Below are positions 1 to 11,210 of a DNA stretch of 14,011 bases, piece after piece. Source of the stretch: Pavlovales sp. CCMP2436 (lineage: Eukaryota; Haptophyta; Pavlovophyceae; Pavlovales); contig MU631843.1 in NCBI GenBank assembly GCA_026770615.1, positions 35,748-49,758 on the forward strand, in the 5' to 3' direction. The notes beneath the pieces are model-generated. The model saw nothing but the letters and a program-made list of their open reading frames with translations, was not told the origin of the DNA and ran no database searches. Both the position numbers and the translations under genes were made by a program. The first letter of the stretch is position 1, and each line of letters opens with the position of its first letter.

Positions 1-322
1 TGGATTATAACATGACTTTCTGGATTACAACAGAACAAAAAAGGGGAATGCGAGGGCCACACGGTAAATGGCGTACAGATGTCAATCGGACAGGGTCTGT
101 GGGTGCTGCGTAGGGTGACGGCCGACACGGGAGGTCATTTTGCGTCATTGCAATCATTAATTTGTCAATGTCTTCAACATCATTAAATAAAGTGACAACA
201 ACTACAAATATGGCAGTGACGGATGTTACATACGGCAGTGATGGGAGCATATGAACATAGGAAATAGCGCATTACTATATCGCTCGATGTATGACATATT
301 TCAGACATAATATGAAACGCAC
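1..322. other. Left flank, probable intron or 3' flank of the LRR gene
   Basis: Mixed, AT-leaning sequence with no exon-like GC block. It has small direct repeats: TGGATTATAAC/TGGATTACAAC at the start and GGCAGTGA(C/T)GG at about 213 and 234. If exon 9 splices onward, this is intron; otherwise it is 3' flank. Confidence 0.45.
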
Positions 323-473
323 CCCGGCCGCCTCGCCGCCCGCCGCCGGCTGTGCGGCCGCGGCGTCGGCGAGCGTCAGCGCCGCGGCCTCAAACACCGT
401 GGCGCCGGCAACAGCCGCCGGTGCGGGGCGGAGCACGCGGAGCGCCTCCAGCCGACGCAGCGCGAAGGCGAGC
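323..473 (-). CDS. LRR gene exon 9
   Basis: 151 bases after ATAATCAG. One base completes Arg; then 50 codons starting LAFALRRLEALRVLRP and ending AAGGEAAG. The likely donor is GGG|GTGCGTTT in phase 0, resembling the other GTGCG donors, so the gene may continue past the left edge. If it is not spliced, the frame stops at 275-277 after 15 more codons. Confidence 0.65.
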
Positions 474-3400
474 CTGATTATTTATTTGATTAATTTATGA
501 TGCGCATGATGATGATGATGATTATGATATTATTATCGATGATTTATGAGGATGATTATAATGATTAGATTATTATGATCGAGCATTTATAGCTATTGAT
601 TGTTGTTGTGATGAATATTTTGATATTGCTATGATGTGATTATTGTTGGTAGTTGCATGTCATGCCCGTACGCCTTCGGGCTGCAAGTCGGAGGGCGTTG
701 AAAGAACTATTATGTAAGTACCGCTACTCGAGGGAAAAAACTATTATTTATATCAAAAAAGTTGTTGGTGTTATTATTATTGCTCTTATAATAATAATAA
801 ACATTTCAAGGTAGTTGTGCTACCGCTCCTAGAGTGCGCCGAGCCCTGCGCGTGCCATCCGTTAATATGTATTTATTACTGATTCTTCTTATTTATTTGC
901 TATTATTGTTATGTGTATTTATTGTTTTTGTACCGCTCCTCGAGCGCGCCGAGCGCCGCGGCACTGCGCACACCATCCGCCTCGTGGGCGGCAAGCGCAA
1001 CGCCCAGGCCTATTATATAAATATATTAATAAGAACCACCGGCATAAGGCTATGTACACATACACACATACACACACATATATAAATACACACATATATA
1101 TGTATATATATATATATATATAATATACACACACACATATATATATATATATATACACACACACATGTATTATTGATTTTTTGTTATCACTACTACTACT
1201 ATTACACCTACGATGATTAATATTACTATTATTAATTATAAGAATTAAACCACCGTCCGCGAGCTACCGAACGATTTGTAATTATCATATAAGTATAACC
1301 GCCCTTGCCCGGGCACACTACCGGAGATCCATCGGCACGCGCGGTGGCGCCCAAGCCAGCGCAGCCGATTAAGGCACGCAGCAGGCAATGGGCGACGCAG
1401 CGCTCAGACCAGCACAACTTCCAGAACAGTCAGACGCCAGCTTGAATCCCTATCAGAAATATATAATATAACAAATATCTAGGCGTGCAAGATATACATG
1501 ATATTTAGTAGAACGACAGTATAAAGCTAAAACAATAGTTCTTCCAACTATCATACAGTTATACGAGTGATAGTTATACGAGTAAGATTGACGCACTCTG
1601 TCGACACAGATATTAGGTACACACACAACCCCCCCCCACACACAACAGCAAATACCAGGCACACACCACCCCACTCCCCTATATACCCCCCCCCACCCAC
1701 ACACACCGACCCCCCCTCCACCACTCCCCTTCCCTACCCCCATTAACATACGTCTATACATTTACACCCCCTCCCCCCACACACACACCGCCCGTGAGCT
1801 GTCGCACGAGTGCCCTGAGCGCGACTGCCGCCTCGGCGCTGCCCTGCTGGCTCCCGAGCGCACGCCGCGCGCGGCCAAGCTCGGCGTGGGCGAGGCGCAG
1901 TGCGGTGCGCTCGAGGGCCGCCTCGTGCTGCGCGCGGCTCGCCAACCTGGGGTTTGGGGGGAAGCGGGGGGGGGGGTGTAGGGGGGTGGGGGTAGGGTGG
2001 GGGTTACAAAAGTACGGAACATTCGAGGACAAAAGCATTGCTCCCGTTTGCAATCAAATCAAAATGCTGCGCACAGCTCGCCAACCTAGGGTGTAGGGGG
2101 GGGAGGAGGGTTGGGTGTGGGGGTTACAAAAGGACGGAACATTCGAGGAATCGCACTGCTCCCTCCTCCCCCCAGGTAGAAGACGCGCGCACCTCTCTGC
2201 CGCCCCCATCCCCTCCCTCGCCCCCTTCGCCTCTGCCTCACGCGCGCGCAGGAGCTCGCGCAGCTTGGCGCGCTCGTGGCGCGCGCGAAGCTCCGCCGAC
2301 TTGGCGGTCACCAGCGAGCCGAAGAGGCGGCTGCGCCACAGCCGGAGCAGCGAGAGGGCGGGGGGGGCGTCGGCGCCGTCGGCGCGCGCGTCGAGGCCTG
2401 TTGTAGATTGAATGTATACTGTTATACACTACATATTTATGAAGCCGAGGCCTGTTCTAAATTATATTCATATACGTTAGGACTGTTATACGTTAGTTGA
2501 TTACCGTCTGCGTCCCCTTCGTAGAGGTGTGCCTCCTGCGCCTCCAGCAGCTCGCCCATCGCCTCTAACCGCATCTGATATAAATAAAGAAGCAATTAAT
2601 TAATTAATAAGAATAAGAATATCAATAAGAATATCAATATTAATATTATAAAGTATATTACATATTAATCCAGCAGATCGCCCATCGCCTCTAGCCGCAT
2701 CTGATAAATGATGAGAATGATAATAACAAATAAATTAATCAGAATAATTAGTATACTAAGCCAGCAGATCGCCCATCGCTTTGAGGTGCATCTGATAGAT
2801 AATAATAATAATAACAACAAATAAATAAATAAACAAATAAATAAAGAAGAGTAATTATGGTAATAAGCCAGCAGCTCGCCCATCGCCTTTAGCCGCATCT
2901 GATATGATTATATAATTTATTCCTCTCGAGACCCCTTATCGTCGTCAGTTCATAACGACGTCACTCCGAGGAGTGAACCCGCCGTGGCCAAAAAAAAAAA
3001 AAAAAAACAGATCGCCCATCGCCTTTAACCGCATCCGATAATAATAATATTGATAATAATAATGATGAGAAAAATACCTGCAGTAGCACGGACAAAGGCG
3101 CGCCCTCCCCCTCCGCATCGTCATCCGCACCCTCGCCGGCCGGCGGGATGCTGCTCGCGCGCGCGAGCTGCTGCGGCGGCGGCGGCGGCTGCGGCCGCGC
3201 GGCGGGGGGCGGCGGGGGTGCCGTCGCGGCCTGTATATATGGTTATATCCAATTGTAATCTATTTAAAATACAGGTACAGGTAGAGATAACCGATAGAGA
3301 TGTATAGATACAGATTTATAGATCAGCTTTGTAGTTTGGTGGGTCTGTACTCTTGGCTACGACCCCCGCCCAACGCCTCCCCTGCTGCTTGTTGGCATGA

Positions 3401-5101
3401 AGCTCTCAGACCCAGACCTGTTGCAAACTGCTGAGCCACTTATATATATATATATATATATATAATATGTGTGTGTGTGTGTGTATATATATTTTTATAT
3501 ATACATATATGTATACATATATGTTTTTTTTCGGAAGCCTCGCAATGGCCCGTGAAATAGAGTATATACATTTGTGCGTAGCGCGTAGGAGTCTGCGTCG
3601 GAGCGCTAAGATCAGCTTGACTTGAAATTGACACACCGCCAGCCAGTACCCCCTACATTAATATAATAGCGGCTCAGCAGATTCTATATAATATAATATG
3701 TGTATGTACCTGCGCGGACACGAGGCCGATGTACCGGCGCAGGTTGGCGGCGGCGGTGCGCTCGGCGGCGAGCTCTCCAGTGGCCTCGGCGAGTGCGCTC
3801 TCGGCCGTGGCAAGCGCGCACGCGCTGCCCGCGGCCTGCGCGCGGGCGCCGGCTGCGTCCGCTCTGAGCGCACTCGCCTCCCCCTCCCAGGCGTCGTGCG
3901 CGCGCGCGTGCGTCGCCGCCGCCTCGGCGAGCTGCGCAGACAGGGCGGCGATCGTCTCCCGGTCGGCATGCGCGGCGGCGGCCGCCTCGGCCACCGCCGC
4001 CTCGGCGCGTGCGCGCTCCGAGCGAGCCCACGCCGCCGCCTCCGCGACCGCCGCCTCGGCGCGGGCCGCGGCGGCGGCGGCGCGCGCGCCCCCCTGCGAG
4101 CCGTCTGGCGTCGGCGGCGCGCGCGGCGCCGAGCTCGCAAAGGCGAGGGCATGTCGCGCGCCCGCCGCTGGCGCGTAGCTGGCGGACGCGTAGCTGGCCG
4201 GTGCCGCCACCGGCACCATCGCGTAGTGGTCGAGCGCGGCGGTTGGCTGCGCCCCGACGGGCGTCAGCGGCGCGGGCGAGCGCGTCGCGTCCGAGGCCCA
4301 CGCGGCCGGCGCATCATGCGCGGCGGTGGCCGGTGCGTGGCCGAGACAAGCTGCGCGCCAGGCATCCGGCGGGCTGCCGCCGTAGCGGAGCGCGGCGGCG
4401 GCCGGTGGATGCACGGCGGCGTGCGAGCGGCGCTCCAGCGGGGTGCCATCAAGCACTCGAAGCCGCGGCAGCTGCGCTGCGACGGCAGCGCGGTATCCGG
4501 GTGCAGCGGCGAGCGGGCAGCCGGCTAGAGAGAGACTGGTCAGCGAGGGCAGCAAGCCGAGCGGAAGCAGGCTCTCCATCGCGTGCAGCGGATTGTCGGA
4601 GAGCGAGAGCGAGGACAGCCGGGGCAGCAGCGCACCCCGCAGCGCGGAGAGGTCGGCACTGCGCGCGGATGGCGCGAGTAAGGGGGAGAGGACGGCTCGT
4701 CAGCGGGGAGGCGTGGCAAGCCCCATTCCCCACGAGCTCGCTGGCAGGTGGGCGTGCGCAGCGACGAGCGGGCGCGCACATCTGGTTGGCCGAGAGGACC
4801 AACGCCTCGAGTGCGGCCAGCGTGCGCACGCCCTCGATCGAGCCGAGCCCGAGCCGGTTGTGCGAGAGGTCGAGCTTGCGTAGCCCCGGTAGGCTCTCAA
4901 GGTTCTCCACATGCGAGATCACTGCGCAGCGGCGAAACGCGGCGGCGCGTCAGGGCGGGTGCTGGGCTCGCGGGTGCACACGGTGAATGCACGCGGTAGG
5001 TGGCGGCGCGCACAGTTGTGCGAGAGGTTGAGCGCGTGCAGTGCCGCGAACCCCGAGGAGACCTCGTCGATTAGCTCGCGCGTGATCCGGTAGATCGGCA
5101 T
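323..5101 (-). CDS. LRR and coiled-coil protein, LRRCC1/VFL1-like, nine exons (3' end uncertain)
   Basis: Spliced exons, in transcript order: 5014-5101, 4780-4921, 3710-4658, 3078-3230, 2505-2574, 2193-2397, 1789-1946, 934-1009, 323-473. Every intron is GT-AG and every junction keeps phase, giving about 664 residues. Residues 20-160 are SDS22-type leucine-rich repeats (LNLSHN, LDLSHN, LVLSAN, LSLSDN). An LRR cap follows (GYRAAVAAQLPRLRVLDG). Then come a low-complexity stretch, an Ala/Glu/Arg-rich coiled coil, a Pro-rich linker and further coiled coil. The layout matches LRRCC1 (VFL1 in Chlamydomonas), a centriole distal-end protein that positions basal bodies; its human form is about 1000 residues. 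That identity is inference, and another centrosomal or ciliary LRR protein is possible. The start ATG at 5101 directly precedes the first repeat. Exon 9 either splices onward out of the window or reads through to a TAG at 275-277. Head-to-head with the dynein light chain gene. Confidence 0.75.
474..720. repeat. AT-rich TGA/TTA-repeat intron sequence
   Basis: Intron 8 begins, in plus coordinates, with imperfect (GAT)n/(TTA)n runs at about 505-560. It also holds a small GC-rich patch at 660-705 with a stem GCCCG...CGGGC. No coding sequence seen. Confidence 0.6.
717..990 (-). repeat. Copies of exon 8 3' edge and donor in intron 8
   Basis: The exon 8 end and donor (931-975, plus strand TACCGCTCCTCGAGCGCGCC) recur at 821-861 as TACCGCTCCTAGAGTGCGCC followed by a shortened version of the next 20 bases. 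A shorter trace is at 718-732 (TACCGCTACTCGAG without the first T). The 821-861 copy keeps a GT in the donor position. Confidence 0.75.
934..1009 (-). CDS. LRR gene exon 8
   Basis: 76 bases after ATAATAG. Encodes LGVALAAHEADGVRSAAALG then ALEE, with split Gly and Arg codons at its two ends. The donor is GAGCG|GTACAAAAA. Partial copies of its 3' edge and donor lie in the following intron. Confidence 0.68.
1030..1170. repeat. CA/TA microsatellite
   Basis: Imperfect runs of (CA)n and (TA)n in intron 7, including TATATATATATATATATA-type tracts and ACACACAC blocks. No gene on either strand; short open frames here are artefacts of the repeat. Confidence 0.9.
1240..1445. other. Unassigned GC-rich island inside intron 7
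   Basis: About 200 bp of mixed, GC-rich, non-repetitive sequence within an otherwise AT-rich and simple-repeat intron. Neither strand gives a coiled-coil reading that fits the phase between exons 7 and 8, so it is not used as an exon. It could be an inserted mobile fragment or an alternative exon. I recognise no family. Confidence 0.4.
1621..1790 (+). repeat. C-rich and CA-rich low-complexity tract by the exon 7 donor
   Basis: Alternating runs of C and CA. The donor-region string CCCACACACACACCG by exon 7 (about 1775-1790) is approximately repeated at 1690-1710 (CCCACACACACCGACC), so this tract may also be a donor-edge expansion. It belongs to intron 7. Confidence 0.6.
1789..1946 (-). CDS. 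LRR gene exon 7 (coiled coil)
   Basis: 158 bases after AAACCCCAG. Encodes LASRAQHEAALERTALRLAH and continues to VALRALVRQLTG. It ends in a single G before the donor GTGTGTGTGG. The acceptor was chosen because only this one completes the split Arg codon and stays in the coiled-coil frame. Confidence 0.75.
1927..2160 (-). repeat. Tandem duplication of intron 6 end plus exon 7 start
   Basis: Two units share the acceptor and the first ~22 bases of exon 7 (genuine 1925-1950, copy 2064-2088). They also share an intron segment with GGGTTACAAAAG and ACGGAACATTCGAGGA (1999-2030 and 2119-2149). Between these lie G-rich tracts of different length, giving a period of about 120-138 bp. The copy keeps an AG acceptor but becomes noncoding after GCGCAGCA. 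Confidence 0.85.
2193..2397 (-). CDS. LRR gene exon 6 (coiled coil)
   Basis: 205 bases after CTACAACAG. Encodes GLDARADGADAPPALSLLR and then a basic helix with SAELRARHERAKLRELLRAR, ending GAAE plus a split Arg codon (AG|GTGCGCGCG). The phase fits both neighbours exactly. Confidence 0.78.
2391..2476 (-). repeat. Duplicated exon 6 acceptor in intron 5
   Basis: The junction sequence CGAGGCCTGTTGTAGATT (plus strand, 2392-2409), covering the first bases of exon 6 and the end of the intron, recurs as CGAGGCCTGTTCTAAATT at 2446-2463. Weaker similarity continues to about 2476 (ATATTCATATACG against GAATGTATACTG). Confidence 0.65.
2505..2574 (-). CDS. LRR gene exon 5
   Basis: 70 bases after the acceptor TATCAG. 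Encodes MRLEAMGELLEAQEAHLYEG and then DAD, with a final G that completes a Gly codon in exon 6. The donor is GACG|GTAATC. Heptad-like spacing fits a coiled coil. The first 28-30 bases of this exon recur four times in the upstream intron (see the repeat at 2669-3040). Confidence 0.75.
2669..3040 (-). repeat. Four degraded copies of the exon 5 acceptor and exon start inside intron 4
   Basis: Copies lie near 2669-2706, 2760-2797, 2867-2905 and 3008-3040; the genuine junction is at 2574. Each has, on the minus strand, TATCAG or a variant followed by about 28 bases matching the exon 5 start (protein M-R/H-L-K/E-A-M-G-D/E-L-L). The match ends at the same point in three of them. None carries the rest of the exon or a standard donor. 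The copy at 3008-3040 has lost the acceptor AG (TATCGG). Spacers are AT-rich and 55-105 bp long. Confidence 0.85.
2918..3007 (+). other. Retroposon-like insert ending in a 17-base A run
   Basis: Within intron 4, about 75 bp of mixed sequence ends in GCCGTGGCC followed by an uninterrupted A run at about 2991-3007. It contains two neighbouring stem-loops: CGTCGT/ACGACG (2940-2945 with 2955-2960) and CACTCC-GA-GGAGTG just after. The layout is that of a short poly(A)-tailed retrocopy. No clear target duplication or family was recognised. Confidence 0.4.
3078..3230 (-). CDS. LRR gene exon 4 (Pro-rich linker)
   Basis: 153 bases, 51 codons, phase 0 at both ends, between TATATACAG and CAG|GTATTT. 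It encodes a poly-Pro/Ala/Gln stretch followed by an acidic segment (GEGADDDAEGEG) and ends PLSVLLQ. The sharp change from AT-rich flanks to very GC-rich sequence marks it as an exon. Confidence 0.7.
3439..3530. repeat. TA/GT microsatellite in intron 3
   Basis: (TA)n followed by (GT)n, then (TATA)/(CATA) runs and a T run ending near 3530. It is flanked by a 9-bp inverted pair, TGCTGAGCC near 3430 and GGCTCAGCA near 3671. Confidence 0.9.
3579..3663 (+). repeat. 88-bp dispersed repeat, copy 1 (in intron 3 of the LRR gene)
   Basis: Begins TAGCGCGTAGGAG and ends CCCCTACATTAATA. It matches the two copies in the retrotransposon along its whole length, with about a dozen changes and a 3-base length difference. 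The ends hold a weak inverted match (GTAGGAG near the start, CCCCTAC near the end), as in a tiny inverted-repeat element. No target duplication is clear. Confidence 0.85.
3710..4658 (-). CDS. LRR gene exon 3 (LRR cap and first coiled coil)
   Basis: Largest exon, 316 whole codons. It carries the last LRRs (PRLSSLSLSDN, PSLTSLSLAG), the LRR cap ending LRVLDG, then about 110 residues rich in Ala, Pro and Ser. The rest is a coiled coil with an internal duplication (ARAEAAVAEAAA twice) and ends NLRRYIGLVSAQ. The donor is CAG|GTACATAC. Long GC-rich open frames on the other strand here are shadows of this exon. Confidence 0.85.
4659..5013 (-). other. Two short GC-rich introns with matching ends (4922-5013 and 4659-4779)
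   Basis: Introns 1 (92 bp) and 2 (121 bp) both begin GTGCGCGCC, both end GCGCAG, and both sit in the context T|intron|TG. They are GC-rich like the exons, unlike the AT-rich introns in the 3' half of the gene. The exon between them (4780-4921) is annotated separately. Confidence 0.75.
4780..4921 (-). CDS. LRR gene exon 2
   Basis: Starts TG after GCGCAG, completing a Leu codon, and encodes ISHVENLESLPGLRKLDLSHN followed by a second repeat ending LVLSANQ. It ends in AT, which the next exon completes to Ile. The LRR periodicity runs unbroken across both junctions, which is strong support for the splice sites. Confidence 0.85.
5014..5101 (-). CDS. LRR gene exon 1
   Basis: Encodes 29 residues beginning MPIYRITRELIDEV and ending in the LRR motif ALNLSHN, plus the first base of a split Leu codon. 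The donor is T|GTGCGCGCC. The frame is open further upstream, but that sequence has no recognisable protein pattern, so the ATG just before the first repeat is preferred. Confidence 0.75.
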
Positions 5102-5453: not shown

Positions 5454-5756
5454 ATGTCGACCGAGATCGAGGAGACGGTCAAGCGGCTGACCGGCTTCAA
5501 GGGCGTGAAGGGCCTGATCGTCATCAACCAGGACGGCATCCCGATCCGCTACACCTTCGAGCCCGAGCTCGTCACGCACTACGCCGCACTCGTCCACCAG
5601 CTTGTCAATCAGGCGCGCGCCATCGTGCGCGAGCTGGACTCAACGGACGACCTGGTGACGCTGCGCGTGCGCTCGAAGAACCACGAGTTGATCATAGCTC
5701 CCGAAAAGGAGTACGTCATGTGCGTCATCCACGTACCCGATGTGACGCATGACTGA
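5454..5756 (+). CDS. DYNLRB1: Dynein light chain, roadblock/LC7 type
   Basis: 100 residues, the usual length of this family. Roadblock light chains form a homodimer that binds the dynein intermediate chain, in cytoplasmic dynein and, for flagellar forms, in axonemal and intraflagellar-transport dyneins. Visible landmarks are the N-terminal helix EIEETVKRL, the beta-strand KGLIVINQDGIPIRYTF, the long helix HYAALVHQLVNQARAIVREL, then DLVTLRVRSKNHELIIAPEKEY and the closing VIHVP. It is one uninterrupted exon ending in TGA. The frame is open upstream to 5325, but that extension lacks family similarity and contains promoter repeats, so the ATG at 5454 (GAGAAGAGATG) is chosen. Sequence alone cannot decide between cytoplasmic and flagellar isoforms. 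Confidence 0.94.
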   Translation: MSTEIEETVKRLTGFKGVKGLIVINQDGIPIRYTFEPELVTHYAALVHQLVNQARAIVRELDSTDDLVTLRVRSKNHELIIAPEKEYVMCVIHVPDVTHD

Positions 5757-6309: not shown

Positions 6310-6978
6310 TCATATCCTGGAAACCCGACACTGAAGGGTCCAGCCGCTACCTCCTGAGTGGGTTGAGGCAGTCCCAAGAGGTGGTGAGTATCGTCTGTGT
6401 TTGGAGGGATTTGAGTCGGAGGAGCTGAGTGTCGCAGCTGTGAGCTCGCTGTCTAGAGCGTCTTTGTCCCCTGGACGGATGGCGTTTATCATGTGTATTT
6501 CCCGTCTCCCGTCTGAATAGTTGATTAGGTAAGCGACGCCTCCTGCTGTTTTCCCTGTCATCTCATTGTGGGAGCCATCGACTACTACGTCGGTGACTGT
6601 TAAACCTCCCGGGAGAGCTGTTCCTAGTGTTTTGTCATGTTTGTCCAGATGAGTGTTTCGCAGGTGTGCCGTGTGGGATCTGGTGCCTGCGGATGCAGCA
6701 AACCGTGGGAGGGCTTGGAGGGTTGCGGCTGTCAGGATTTTTGGAGAGATGGTGGGATGTGGTGTTTGTGGCCTGGCTCCCAGTTGGAGACCCATTCTTT
6801 TGCGAAGAAGGCTCAGCTTTGTGAGACCCAGGGATCCTCGTTTGTGCGTGCACTTGATGATCCATTCAGCTGGATTTTCTTCTTGATCGTCCGTTCTATC
6901 GCTGTTGTGGGGTTGGGCGAGAGAATGGCACGGTCTAGATCTGTTGCTCCGTCTGTTCGTCCTTGTATGGGTTGGCAC
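6310..6978 (-). pseudogene. LINE RNase H-like domain, C-terminally broken
   Basis: In 222 codons the middle has VTDVVVDGSHNEMTGKTAGG, with the first catalytic Asp in VDGS and the Gly-rich second strand. DKDALDSELTAAT follows with the Glu of the second catalytic position. This fits the first half of RNase H, which removes template RNA. The expected third motif (T-D-S) is not in this frame; a diverged TILTTSWDCLN lies in the +1 frame nearby with the Asp absent. The frame instead ends in SGWTLQCRVSRI, which belongs to a sequence shared with the window's right end. Confidence 0.72.
6315..6350 (+). repeat. Shared sequence, left copy (LINE 3' part)
   Basis: TCCTGGAAACCCGAC, then CTGAAGGGTCCAGCCGCTAC. 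The same string lies inverted at 13941-13997, with small differences and a 20-bp internal duplication there. Confidence 0.8.
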
Positions 6979-7308
6979 AGTTGGAGTGTGTCGGTGAGTG
7001 GTCTGTTGAGTTGGGTCTGTAGTTGGCTCCTTAGCTTTTTGATTAGGCCGCCTTGGGTTTTGGCTTTCCCGGTGGCTATTAGTGGAGATGTCAGTTCCGG
7101 TCCGAGGAGTTCACTAAGTGTGAGTTTCCCGATCAGGATGTCGGCCGCTATTCGAAAATTGTTTGAAATCGGGTCCTCGGATTCTTTTGTGACCGTGCTG
7201 TTTAGGGATCGCCAGCCCTCTGCGACTGTGGGGGGTAGAGGGTGTCAAGGTGTGCTTGTGATCTGTCGTACTCGAGAGTGCCGTTGAAAGCATGATATAG
7301 TTTCGGCT
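6813..7308 (-). pseudogene. LINE region between post-RT segment and RNase H
   Basis: Continues after repeat copy 2 as KLYHAFNGTLEYDRSQAHLD (frame open to about 7208). It then shifts frame to PTVAEGWRSLNSTVTKESED, RIAADILIGKLTLSELLGP and KTQGGLIKKLRSQLQTQLNR, ending at a TGA near 6813-6815. No named domain; helical and polar. Confidence 0.6.
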
Positions 7309-7396
7309 TAGCGCGTAGGAGCCTGCGTCGGAACGCTAAGATCAGCCTGACTTAAACTTGAAACGTACCGCCAGCCCGAACACCCCTACATTAATA
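7309..7396 (+). repeat. 88-bp dispersed repeat, copy 2 (in the LINE)
   Basis: Same element, differing from copy 3 at about 4 of 88 positions by eye. It interrupts the minus-strand LINE frame between a segment ending SAVGIASRQL and one starting KLYHAFNGTLEYDR. Both flanking segments are in the same frame. Confidence 0.9.
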
Positions 7397-7662
7397 CAGT
7401 TGGCGTGATGCTATGCCCACTGCAGAGCTTGTATTAAGGAGGGTGAGCAGGGCTGCGGCTTTGTACCCTGCGTTGAGAGCGAAAGGATCTGCAATGCCCG
7501 TTCCTCCGGAGTTGAGTGAGCCGCAAAGCATGGCTGTTGGTGTGAAGAGTGCGGGGAGCAAGCCCCTGCGTATTATGGTCGATAGCAGGGTATTCTGCGC
7601 TGAGTTTAGTTGTGCTGCTGTGGTTCTAATTGCTTGTAGGTGGTAGGGTAGCAGGCTTAATA
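7397..7662 (-). pseudogene. LINE post-RT segment trapped between two inverted 88-bp repeats
   Basis: Translates as PYHLQAIRTTAAQLNSAQNT, then LLSTIIRRGLLPALFTPT, GSLNSGGTGIADPFALNAGY and KAAALLTLLNTSSAVGIASR. The Gly-Gly-x-Gly-Ile followed by an Ala-rich helix is typical of the region after RT in LINEs. It is in sense orientation with RT and in one frame with the flanks outside both repeats, so it is original LINE sequence and not cargo. Confidence 0.75.
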
Positions 7663-7750
7663 TATTAATGTAGGGGGGTTCGGGCTGGCGGTACGTTTCA
7701 AGTTCAAATCAGGCTGATCTTAGCGCTCCGACGCAGGCTCCTACGCGCTA
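7663..7750 (-). repeat. 88-bp dispersed repeat, copy 3 (in the LINE, inverted to copy 2)
   Basis: Opposite orientation to copy 2, 266 bp away, so the two can pair as long arms. It puts a stop codon into the RT-distal frame right after HHFYQLPTSA; coding sequence resumes in the same frame as PYHLQAIRTTAAQ. Confidence 0.9.
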
Positions 7751-9324
7751 TGCCGAAGTGGGGAGCTGGTAGAAGTGGTGGATGATGAGGAAGCCGAAAA
7801 CAAAGCGCTGGCGTCGCTGCGCAACGCGGAGCCGCCCGACAGTGCGCCATGTGCTGTGAACATGGCCAGTGTAGCTAGGCGGCACGCCGGTGATGCTGCT
7901 ACTGCTTTCCATCTGGATGCTGCGGCGCCTAGGCGGGTCTGCAGGTGGGTCCACGTCACGTCCCAGTTGAGGGTCGGGCCCATGCTTATGCCTAGGTAGG
8001 TCACTTGGTCCCCGTTGTTGAGTGTTATTATTTCGAGGTGTGGGCGGTGGTCAGTTGCTGGAATGATTAAATTTTCCGGTGTAGCTGTATCTTCCTTTCC
8101 TTCGTCCGTTCGGGCTCTTTTGTGGGGCCCTGTGGGTAGCCATTGGAGGTGGCTGCATTTCGAGATGTTGAGCGTCATATTGTGGGCGGTGAGGAATTCG
8201 TGTAGGAGTGCAATTTGTTGGGTGCTTCCCGTTGTAGTGTCGGCGACGATTGCTGTATCGTCCATCCAAGCTTGGGCGAAAAGGCAGTGGTCGCTGTTGG
8301 GATCGGCCTTATATGCGGTTTCCGGGTGTGTGATGGCGAGCCAACAGTAGAACATGTCGATGAAAAGACAGAATCTGATCGGGCTCATGGGGCACCCCTG
8401 CTTGCATCCCAACGATATTGGGTATGTGCAGTGTGAGTGGCCATATAGGGTGCGGGTTGCTGCTTCGTCGTAGACTTGTAGATTTCCGACTCGTTGAATG
8501 AGACCTTCTGGGAAACCGTGTAATTTGAGCGCCTGTGTTAGTGCGGCTTGTGGGACTTTGTCGAAAACCTTGGCTATGTCGTAGAAGACGATGTGGAGTT
8601 CTTTGTTATTCCGCTTGGCACGCATTATTATGGAGATTAAGCCTGCTGCTTGTAGGCCGGAGTTGCTTTTGGCCCGTGTGGCTCCTTGTGTGGTGTGGAT
8701 TAGTTCTTGACTGTGCACTGCTTTCATGATGCGGCCAGCAGTGTGCGCTGCTGCGAGTTTGTAAAGGATGCTTTGGAGGGCAATGCCTCTGTAGTTGGTC
8801 AAGTCTAAGGGGTCACCTTTCTTATGGAAATAGACGACCTCTGCTTTGGTTACTTGTTTGGGTAGCCTGAGTGTTTTGAGGAAGCAGTTTACTATGTTGG
8901 TTAGGAAGATTTGCACTCGCTCTGGTTGGTAAAAAATCCCGCGTTTCGATGCTTGCTCTGCGGCGAGGTCATCAGCGAATAGCATCAGCTTCAGCACTCC
9001 GTATTGGATGCCATCGAACCCTGGGGCTCCGTTGGTTTTTCCTTTGCGGATTAATTTTTGAATTTCTGCTTCGGTGGCTAGTGCGCAGACTTCCTTTGTG
9101 TTTTCTTCATTCCAGCTTGAGAGGCAGGTTTGCCAGATTGCTGGGCTTTCCCAGGGTCTTGTGGCGTCTGTGGTTGCGTGTGATGGGGGTGGTTGTTGTG
9201 GGTTTAGGAGGCTCTCTGTGTAGGCGGCTGCTCCATTGATCCCTAATGGTGGTGGGTCTTGCGTGGTTTTCCCTGTGGCTTTAACTCTGACATCGAGAGA
9301 TCTGCCCTGTGGTGTTTGTAGGAT
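7741..9324 (-). pseudogene. LINE reverse transcriptase domain
   Basis: Open for 527 codons, from a TAG at 9325-9327 to the stop at 7741-7743. RT copies the element RNA into DNA at the nicked target. Motifs in order: KTNGAPGFDGIQ, KAEVVYFHKKGDP with LTNYRGIALQSILYKL, FYDIAKVFDKVPQAAL (box A Asp), GCKQGCPMSPIRF (box B), FAQAWMDDTAIVADT (box C, Met-Asp-Asp, in place of the common Ala-Asp-Asp), LNISKCSHLQW, VTYLGISMGP. All three catalytic Asp positions are present. The last ~60 codons probably left the true frame, since another frame (to 7748, FGFLIIHHFYQLPTSA) connects to the next segment. The N-terminal start is unknown because the domain belongs to a longer polyprotein. Confidence 0.95.
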
Positions 9325-10180: not shown

Positions 10181-11059
10181 TCAGTGTGCTGTGGTGCCAG
10201 GTTTTACGGATGCACCTTCATCTTCGTTTGTGTGTAGAACGTGTTGGCTGATGTTGATGTTGGAGAAAATGTAGTTGATGCGTTTGCAGGTTTTCCCAAT
10301 GCGGTGTGTATAATTGGTCTGTGGGTTAAAAGTGCCTGGTAGTATTTGGTCTTTCATTTCAGTGAGATTTTCCATCGTTTGTTTGAAATCCCATCCATAA
10401 GGTTCCCGTTCGTGGCTTTGTTCGGTCTCCATGCCATCTGTGAGATAGATGACCCCGTTTGTTGCCCGAACCCCGTTACCGTCTCCGCCTTCAATACGGA
10501 CGACACCGGAGCGACCTGGTGCCATTCAGTCGCCGGCTGTCAAATGGGCCTCGAGACTTGGGAGAAAGCGCTCTTCTCTAGACTTTTTGTGGGGGGCGTA
10601 GAAGCTGGTGAGTTCTATGATTTGTGTGTCTCCTGTTTGGGCTTGGAGAATGAGATCGCCTGTGATGAGGAGGCCGGCTGCTTCACGGCCCATATCTTTC
10701 CCTGTCTTGATGTTCGTCAGGGTCATATAATTGGTTGTTGGAGTGGTTCTGATTGCTATTGCTGTTCCTGACCCAGACTTGATGTTGGAAGGTTTAAAGT
10801 CATTGTACAATGTGTATCTGTCAATGTAATTTGTAGTTGGGGCTCCTTCACAAAGGTTGATTTCTTGCAATAAAAGGACGTCATATTCCATCTTGTCAAA
10901 CTCCCGTTTGTGTTGCAGGGCTGCGTTGAGTCTAGTAAGTCCGTCTGACCCTGAGATGCCGCCAACATTTGCGCTTGCTATTAAGATGCTCTTTTCCTTG
11001 GTGTGTGAGCCGGGATGCCGCCTCTCAGGCGTCCAATACATACAGGGGATCGCGGGCAA
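10181..11059 (-). pseudogene. LINE APE-type endonuclease domain
   Basis: This domain nicks the target DNA to prime reverse transcription. Landmarks in order: ILIASANVGGISG (Asn-containing first strand), DVLLLQEINL (metal-binding Glu), SGSGTAIAIR, TSFYAPHKKSREERFLPSLE, AGD (Asp), then THRIGKTCKRINYIFSN. In the last motif the usual Arg-Ile-Asp is Arg-Ile-Asn. A TGA follows AGD at 10526-10528 with the same frame open on both sides, so a substitution is likelier than an indel. A second in-frame TGA at 10181-10183 comes just before SITHFWVTADF, where the final Asp-His is expected; His is present and Asp is not obvious. The domain is recognisable but probably inactive. Confidence 0.88.
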
Positions 11060-11210
11060 TAAGAACGGCGCTTTTTGAGGCTGAGGCTGAGTTTCTTAGC
11101 AAAATACATACAAGCAATGCTTAAATTTGTTTAAATTACATACAAACTATGCAAAAAAGAGGCTCAGTTTCTTAACACGACGTTTCTTATTGCCCGCGAT
11201 CCCCTGTATG
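11039..11210. repeat. 172-bp inverted-repeat insert between ubiquitin-like and endonuclease regions
   Basis: The outer ends are perfect 27-bp inverted repeats (11039-11065, starting CATACAGGGGATCG, and 11184-11210). Just inside lie two GAGGCT(G/C)AGTTTCTTA blocks in direct orientation (about 11084-11099 and 11159-11174). The core is AT-rich with ATACATACAA repeats. It looks like a small non-autonomous inverted-repeat element or a foldback rearrangement. It ends the ubiquitin-like frame and puts the endonuclease in another frame. No target duplication is evident. Confidence 0.85.

Follow-up and report, generated by a model that had tools for sequence, protein, structure and literature searches.

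Long introns are mostly credited to transposons. In a window of 14,011 nt from the haptophyte Pavlovales sp. CCMP2436 (the whole stretch of DNA analysed here; contig MU631843.1, positions 35,748 to 49,758), one gene encoding leucine-rich repeats (LRR) raises the question of how its introns came to hold partial copies of their own splice junctions, and whether other genes of this alga carry similar copies. An earlier note, made from the letters of the window alone, had proposed an active process that is anchored on splice junctions and lengthens introns by tandem duplication. The GC content of the window is 54.8%. The published assembly of the strain is given as 165.4 Mbp with a GC content of 55.2%, and the word "intron" is absent from the main text of that paper in its accessible part (PMC9756366). 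For Diacronema lutheri, the available portion of the genome report lists 43.5 Mb, with 45% of the coding sequences being single-exon (PMC8379373).

The LRR gene lies on the minus strand (294..5101, the end of exon 9 being uncertain) and comprises, in our hand-made model, nine exons in a single open frame with GT-AG at every internal junction: exon 1 at 5014-5101, exon 2 at 4780-4921, exon 3 at 3710-4658, exon 4 at 3078-3230, exon 5 at 2505..2574 (acceptor AG at 2575-2576), exon 6 at 2193..2397, exon 7 at 1789..1946, exon 8 at 934..1009 and exon 9 at about 294-473. A simple gene finder placed exons 2-8 at the same borders; its training cores included exons 1-4, 6 and 7 of this gene, and exons 5 and 8 were not among them. 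The leucine-rich repeats of the encoded protein exceed the Pfam cut-offs and its tail appears coiled-coil-like by eye. A homologue search returned five proteins, the best of them 46% identical, with no homologue from the same species among the five. The divergent neighbour of the LRR gene is an intronless gene of the dynein light chain roadblock type (Robl_LC7; 5454-5756, plus strand). Elsewhere in the window we noted part of a retrotransposon that encodes a reverse transcriptase domain (RVT_1; 7744-9324, minus strand) and a short repeat, recognised by eye, at 3570-3665 in LRR intron 3 and, in opposite orientations near the retrotransposon, at 7310-7400 and 7656-7756. Pfam matched neither of the open reading frames at 6313-7110 and 10529-11095, the window yielded nothing in Rfam or tRNA searches, and P0007 found no relative when compared with viral contigs.

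Sequence comparison and shuffle controls bore out all eight copies that the earlier note had listed in introns 4, 5, 6 and 8 of this gene, namely four of the exon 5 acceptor edge, one each of the exon 6 and exon 7 acceptor edges and two of the exon 8 donor edge, all on the minus strand. The exon 5 copies lie at 2670..2703 (junction 2700; CAG followed by 31 exon nucleotides), 2761..2794 (junction 2791), 2868..2901 (junction 2898) and 3004..3037 (junction 3034), in an array of tandem units with a period of 91 in intron 4. CAG is retained in three of the four; the fourth has lost its AG and reads CGG. A 23-mer probe of this edge matched the real edge and all copies except copy 2, which has more than 3 mismatches, and it had no match in 200 shuffles. 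The exon 6 copy (2446..2472) includes an exact ACAGGCCTCG at 2446-2455, for which shuffles expect 0.04 matches, and its similarity extends into the intron (p=0.003), the exon part amounting to only 6-7 bases. At exon 7 the copied edge (2065..2163, by sequence comparison) comprises about 21 exon bases and, with gaps, roughly 78-99 intron bases; the copy itself thus held up, while its intron part, put earlier at over 100 bp, had been set slightly too high. The two exon 8 donor copies lie at 814..850, with GTA kept, and at 718..732, the latter being 15 nt long with one mismatch and GTAC kept; the probes for both found nothing in 200 shuffles each. Whole-window shuffles covered the exon 5, 6 and 8 probes, and the exon 7 edge was set against shuffles of its own intron, which it beats (p=0.005). 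The weakest copies of the gene are the second exon 8 donor copy, with its 15 nt, and the exon 6 copy, with its 6-7 exon nucleotides.

Other genes were examined in a genome search space of 119 Mb on 703 contigs. The sample comprised 12 kinase loci out of 100 matches, picked for split or partial matches before their sequence was seen, all seven contigs with at least two kinesin matches, and one CCT1 contig with three matches. Two loci (L035 and L037) with doubtful tiny GC-rich introns were excluded before counting, and two mini-exons predicted in L032, which are in fact copies, were removed from its model by hand. The resulting confident set holds 60 introns with 116 exon edges from 19 loci, that is 18 family-anchored loci and the hand-modelled LRR gene. 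When a copy was counted as a match of at least 19 of 24 nt in the edge's own intron, 15 of the 116 edges had one. None of the controls came close: inverted probes 0/116, reversed probes 0/116, the intron across the same exon 0/97, and foreign introns 1/6489. The excess of exon-edge copies expected by the earlier note is therefore present in this sample of loci. Shuffles within each intron gave p<=0.01 at 20/116 edges versus 0/97 in the intron across the exon. With the LRR gene left out, 12 of 100 edges in seven of 18 loci had copies, and in the other 11 of these 18 loci none were found at this threshold.

The copies go with long introns. No edge adjoining an intron shorter than 150 nt had one (0/39), compared with 7/22 for introns of at least 600 nt, and the median intron length was 592 nt with edge pairs and 177 nt without them. 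Edge pairs occurred in 14 of the 60 introns, a lower bound since the pair detector missed the LRR gene arrays at exons 6, 7 and 8, and a single intron held intron-only pairs alone. One donor pair among these, in L036, is weak, being 25 nt long and not touching the junction. Tandem Repeats Finder was set aside as too insensitive to diverged units.

A random sample of 20 stretches of 10 kb, of which 12 were all N, left 40 kb of readable sequence. Across seven random stretches and seven repeat-anchored loci (L002-L008) the gene finder predicted 14 genes, with copies at 6/138 edges and 1/111 across the exon. Three of the six passing edges were accepted (one in L021, two in L027), and the remaining three (one in L020, two in L002) were rejected as low-complexity sequence. 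In the random stretch L027, one intron on the reverse strand, near 4323-4800, has both a donor-edge and an acceptor-edge copy, each matching at 23/24 positions.

Errors in gene models or duplications introduced during assembly might in principle produce such patterns, since most of the models are computed and the published assembly of the strain, according to the accessible part of its description (PMC9756366), was made from Illumina reads. We consider this exceedingly improbable. The spliced model of CCT1 (L048) agrees without gaps with an independent protein, P0006, at 392/394 residues, and an NCBI protein from Pavlovales sp. CCMP2436 matches the kinesin model of L043 with 100% identity over 83% of the model. 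Furthermore, most copies mismatch the edge at 1-6/25 positions and so are not duplicated pieces of the assembly.

The anatomy of the copies points to duplications that cross an existing junction. Acceptor-edge copies are found upstream of their acceptor and donor-edge copies downstream of their donor, the order that a junction-crossing duplication requires. Reading of 33 copies showed that, inside the intron, exon-end copies precede GT and exon-start copies follow AG. A layout of the AGGT type, with the copy of the downstream exon start directly at the donor end of the intron or that of the upstream exon end directly at its acceptor end, was recognisable in 0/33 by the same reading, though older cases may have decayed. 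Judged by eye, the copies end within the exon, and none looks like the full open exon flanked by two splice sites that mutually exclusive exons would call for; the donor copies of L034 happen to have an AG upstream. In offset probes the signal in the own intron had faded by 36-48 nt into the exon. Probes placed 36-72 nt inside the exon gave a few matches across the exon (donor 2/46 at offset 36; acceptor 3/42 and donor 1/41 at offset 48; acceptor 2/34 and donor 3/36 at offset 72, with donor 1/32 at offset 96), which, taken as a group, are probably due to short exons in which the probe extends to the other edge. Consecutive spacings (n=33) ranged from 49 to 274 nt with a median of 135, and 28/33 fell within 70-171 nt. 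A nucleosome-sized period was considered and dropped, the clustering not being significant against a lognormal null (p=0.08).

Two classes of copies can be distinguished. In the first, similarity reaches well into the intron (L031, intron 3 of L033, the L034 donor, L045 and LRR exons 5-7), and some form regular arrays, with a period of 78-79 and up to 98% identity in L034 and a period of 147 in L033. In the second, found at donors, only the exon edge and 0-5 intron nucleotides are shared (three donors of L032, L043 and LRR exon 8); one L032 copy is 31/32 identical at the edge with unrelated intron sequence behind it.

Overall, many long introns of this alga look like a record of growth by small duplications, carrying decayed tandem copies of the adjoining exon edge and its splice site. 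The copies are in direct orientation only, adjacent to their cognate junction and linked to long introns. Our favoured reading, which we hold to be probable, is that they are relics of small direct tandem duplications that lengthened short introns and were kept by survivorship. At a donor, a duplication would begin within the final 10-60 nt of the exon and extend into the intron; at an acceptor the arrangement would be mirrored. The outermost splice site would stay intact and joined to the rest of the exon; because this outer site still works, the mRNA need not change while the intron gains one unit. The inner copy would afterwards decay, repeated events would build arrays, and transposable elements and A/T-rich simple sequence would fill the remaining intron space. 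The underlying step may have been a staggered break followed by fill-in and end joining, by analogy with small tandem duplications in mammalian cells. Of the earlier proposal, one part is supported: introns were lengthened by direct duplication of local sequence spanning the splice junction, and this recurs in the LRR gene and in other genes.

Whether such duplications are directed to junctions is a separate matter. Breaks or copying might favour splice junctions so that introns grow from their ends, for example through transcription-linked breaks or through a step that copies the exon edge alone. Nearly all duplications detected in the 60 introns touch an exon edge (14 introns versus one), and windows with copies were more frequent at exon edges (11/61) than in intron interiors (36/746) or random stretches (17/1050); for exon interiors the count was 12/425. 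However, exon-edge duplicates remain recognisable for longer, because selection conserves the real exon, which is also rich in GC. In a simulation with randomly placed blocks that were retained only where splicing survives, read by the same detector, survivorship alone brought the edge share to 0.75-0.76 where ancestral introns measured up to 130 nt, to 0.52-0.56 for those up to 260 nt and to 0.44-0.50 over all lengths. The observed arrays lie at the edge in about 15/17 cases (15 at an edge, including the weak L036 pair, and two intron-only, or three if A/T-rich pairs in L031 are included). A binomial calculated by hand for 15/17 gives about 0.19 against a share of 0.76 and about 0.005 against 0.56, so that random placement is compatible with the counts, fitting well only given short ancestral introns and sitting uneasily with longer ones. 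Similarly spaced duplications were also found outside predicted genes (33/544 windows with a copy at 63-308 nt, compared with 44/2382 inside predicted gene spans), a rate that is not representative because L004 and L005, two loci chosen on account of a repeat, contribute 31 of the 33. The edge-only donor copies, with homology ending 0-5 nt past the junction, speak for anchoring and tell against plain unit duplication; filler insertion, indel turnover or some other copying is needed to account for them. On balance we regard anchoring as unlikely and infer survivorship rather than targeting, with the copies themselves being neutral; targeting is possible but not required. Of the active, junction-anchored process of the earlier note, the data support the duplication without requiring the anchoring: in the simulation, 44-76% of the duplications detected under random placement cross an edge. 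That the process may still be active is suggested by the 98% identical array of L034.

The earlier note had also raised decoy or alternative splice sites, that is, copies kept by selection for splice choice. Splice dinucleotides are retained in 29/33 copies, where 21.7 would be expected at the flanking identity of 0.811 (p=0.004), and in 31/33 if two copies are shifted by one base; a first placement of the junctions, some off by 1-3 bases from indels, had given 25/33 before most of these were corrected. This is mild evidence of constraint, weakened because CpG decay in the GC-rich exon part and the placement of junctions by hand may produce the same excess. All four exon 5 copies, read in the exon frame, meet a stop codon before the real exon. 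A 58-nt donor copy in L032 differs at six sites, two per codon position by our reading, and its GT lies away from the homologous position. In CCT1, exon 7 has acceptor copies upstream and a donor copy downstream. P0006 (564 aa) derives from JGI contigs of at most 2138 nt, against a genomic span of 2.84 kb for 394 codons, and hence represents spliced sequence; the copies are absent from it. Similarly, the kinesin protein of CCMP2436, a gene model rather than RNA, crosses the L043 donor without the copy. Decoy use is unproven, and we consider functional decoys very unlikely. Somewhat less improbable, and nonetheless doubtful, is a compound scenario in which local duplications target splice junctions and copy the edge as far as the splice consensus, introns grow from their ends and the duplicate GT or AG sites are kept as working decoys. 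If it were true, junction-directed copying with working decoys would amount to a genome-wide, splice-guided engine of intron growth. As for CCT1 itself, the L048 product is 88% identical to that of Diacronema lutheri, the last residues of P0006 look by eye like a retained intron, and exon 8 (coding strand 2629-2634) begins with NI where P0006 has YF, these being the two residues that differ, exactly at the acceptor edge.

Mobile elements are also present in these introns. A dispersed repeat with its A-run end on the plus strand, SINE-like by eye, occupies 2907..3007 between exon 5 copies 3 and 4, and its part at 2907-2986 matches other contigs. In intron 7, positions 1296-1481 hold a dispersed repeat of about 170 bp whose copies in many contigs, where they cluster locally, are mostly 91-98% identical. 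Sequence comparison also identified an element of about 170 bp with terminal inverted repeats (TIR; CAGGGG...CCCCTG) at 11036-11210 of the window, at 2210-2377 on the coding strand of L032 and at about 645-808 on that of L034; a first look at the genome gave more than a thousand candidates for it. Introners, transposable intron-like elements, might bring splice sites with them, the edge copies then being long target duplications; in favour of this, the TIR element in L032 and L034 sits exactly at the TA of TAG acceptors, so that its end provides the acceptor context. Its position at the acceptor also explains some of the similarity loss in these two loci. However, among the best 40 candidates scored per search, the edge segments and most spacers do not appear dispersed: the matches elsewhere listed in the first search all fell on the 170-bp repeat, an A/T repeat or SINE-like parts, and nearly all of those in the second on the TIR element, with two short exceptions. 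Target duplications of some introners measure 3-9 bp in the available part of the study (PMC9860276), compared with 20-60 here. Introners are thus a highly improbable source of the edge copies.

How do small junction-crossing duplications relate to known systems? Introners, which are common in aquatic lineages, add introns by transposition and, like the copies described here, are sequence additions that alter introns, but they form dispersed families as far as the accessible text goes (PMC9860276), whereas the exon-edge copies are local, direct and gene-specific. Tandem genomic duplication is an accepted route of intron gain in the sections available to us (the AGGT model, PMC3443670; Drosophila cases, PMC2891723). 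As that model is described in part (PMC3443670), it shares with our case small tandem duplications in genes whose extra copy is tolerated through splicing, but in that model duplication of an AGGT within an exon gives rise to a new intron between the two copies. In this alga, by contrast, the unit spans a junction already present and adds length to its intron. One study has reportedly considered within-gene duplications spanning splice sites as giving rise to new introns or exons, and it is not known to have dealt with serial partial relics within introns. For the molecular step, fill-in by Pol alpha-primase/CST at double-strand breaks with 3' overhangs yields small tandem duplications that are likewise short, direct and beside their source, with a mutational signature abundant in genomes, according to the accessible part of that work (PMC8355091). 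It concerns human and mouse cells, with induced overhangs of 43 and 50 bp, whereas the spacings in the alga are mostly 70-171 nt, and a link to fill-in would be by analogy. Among the top listings of our search of the open-access literature, subscription papers lying outside it, no paper described serial relics of exon edges as a mark that intron growth leaves across a genome, which is weak evidence of their novelty.

Small tandem duplications kept by survivorship would make intron growth legible, as the added DNA is tagged by the neighbouring exon edge and can be counted, dated and placed for each junction. Near-identical copies also provide natural tests of how the spliceosome chooses the true site. 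For gene prediction they call for caution, as the gene finder took two of the L032 copies for exons.
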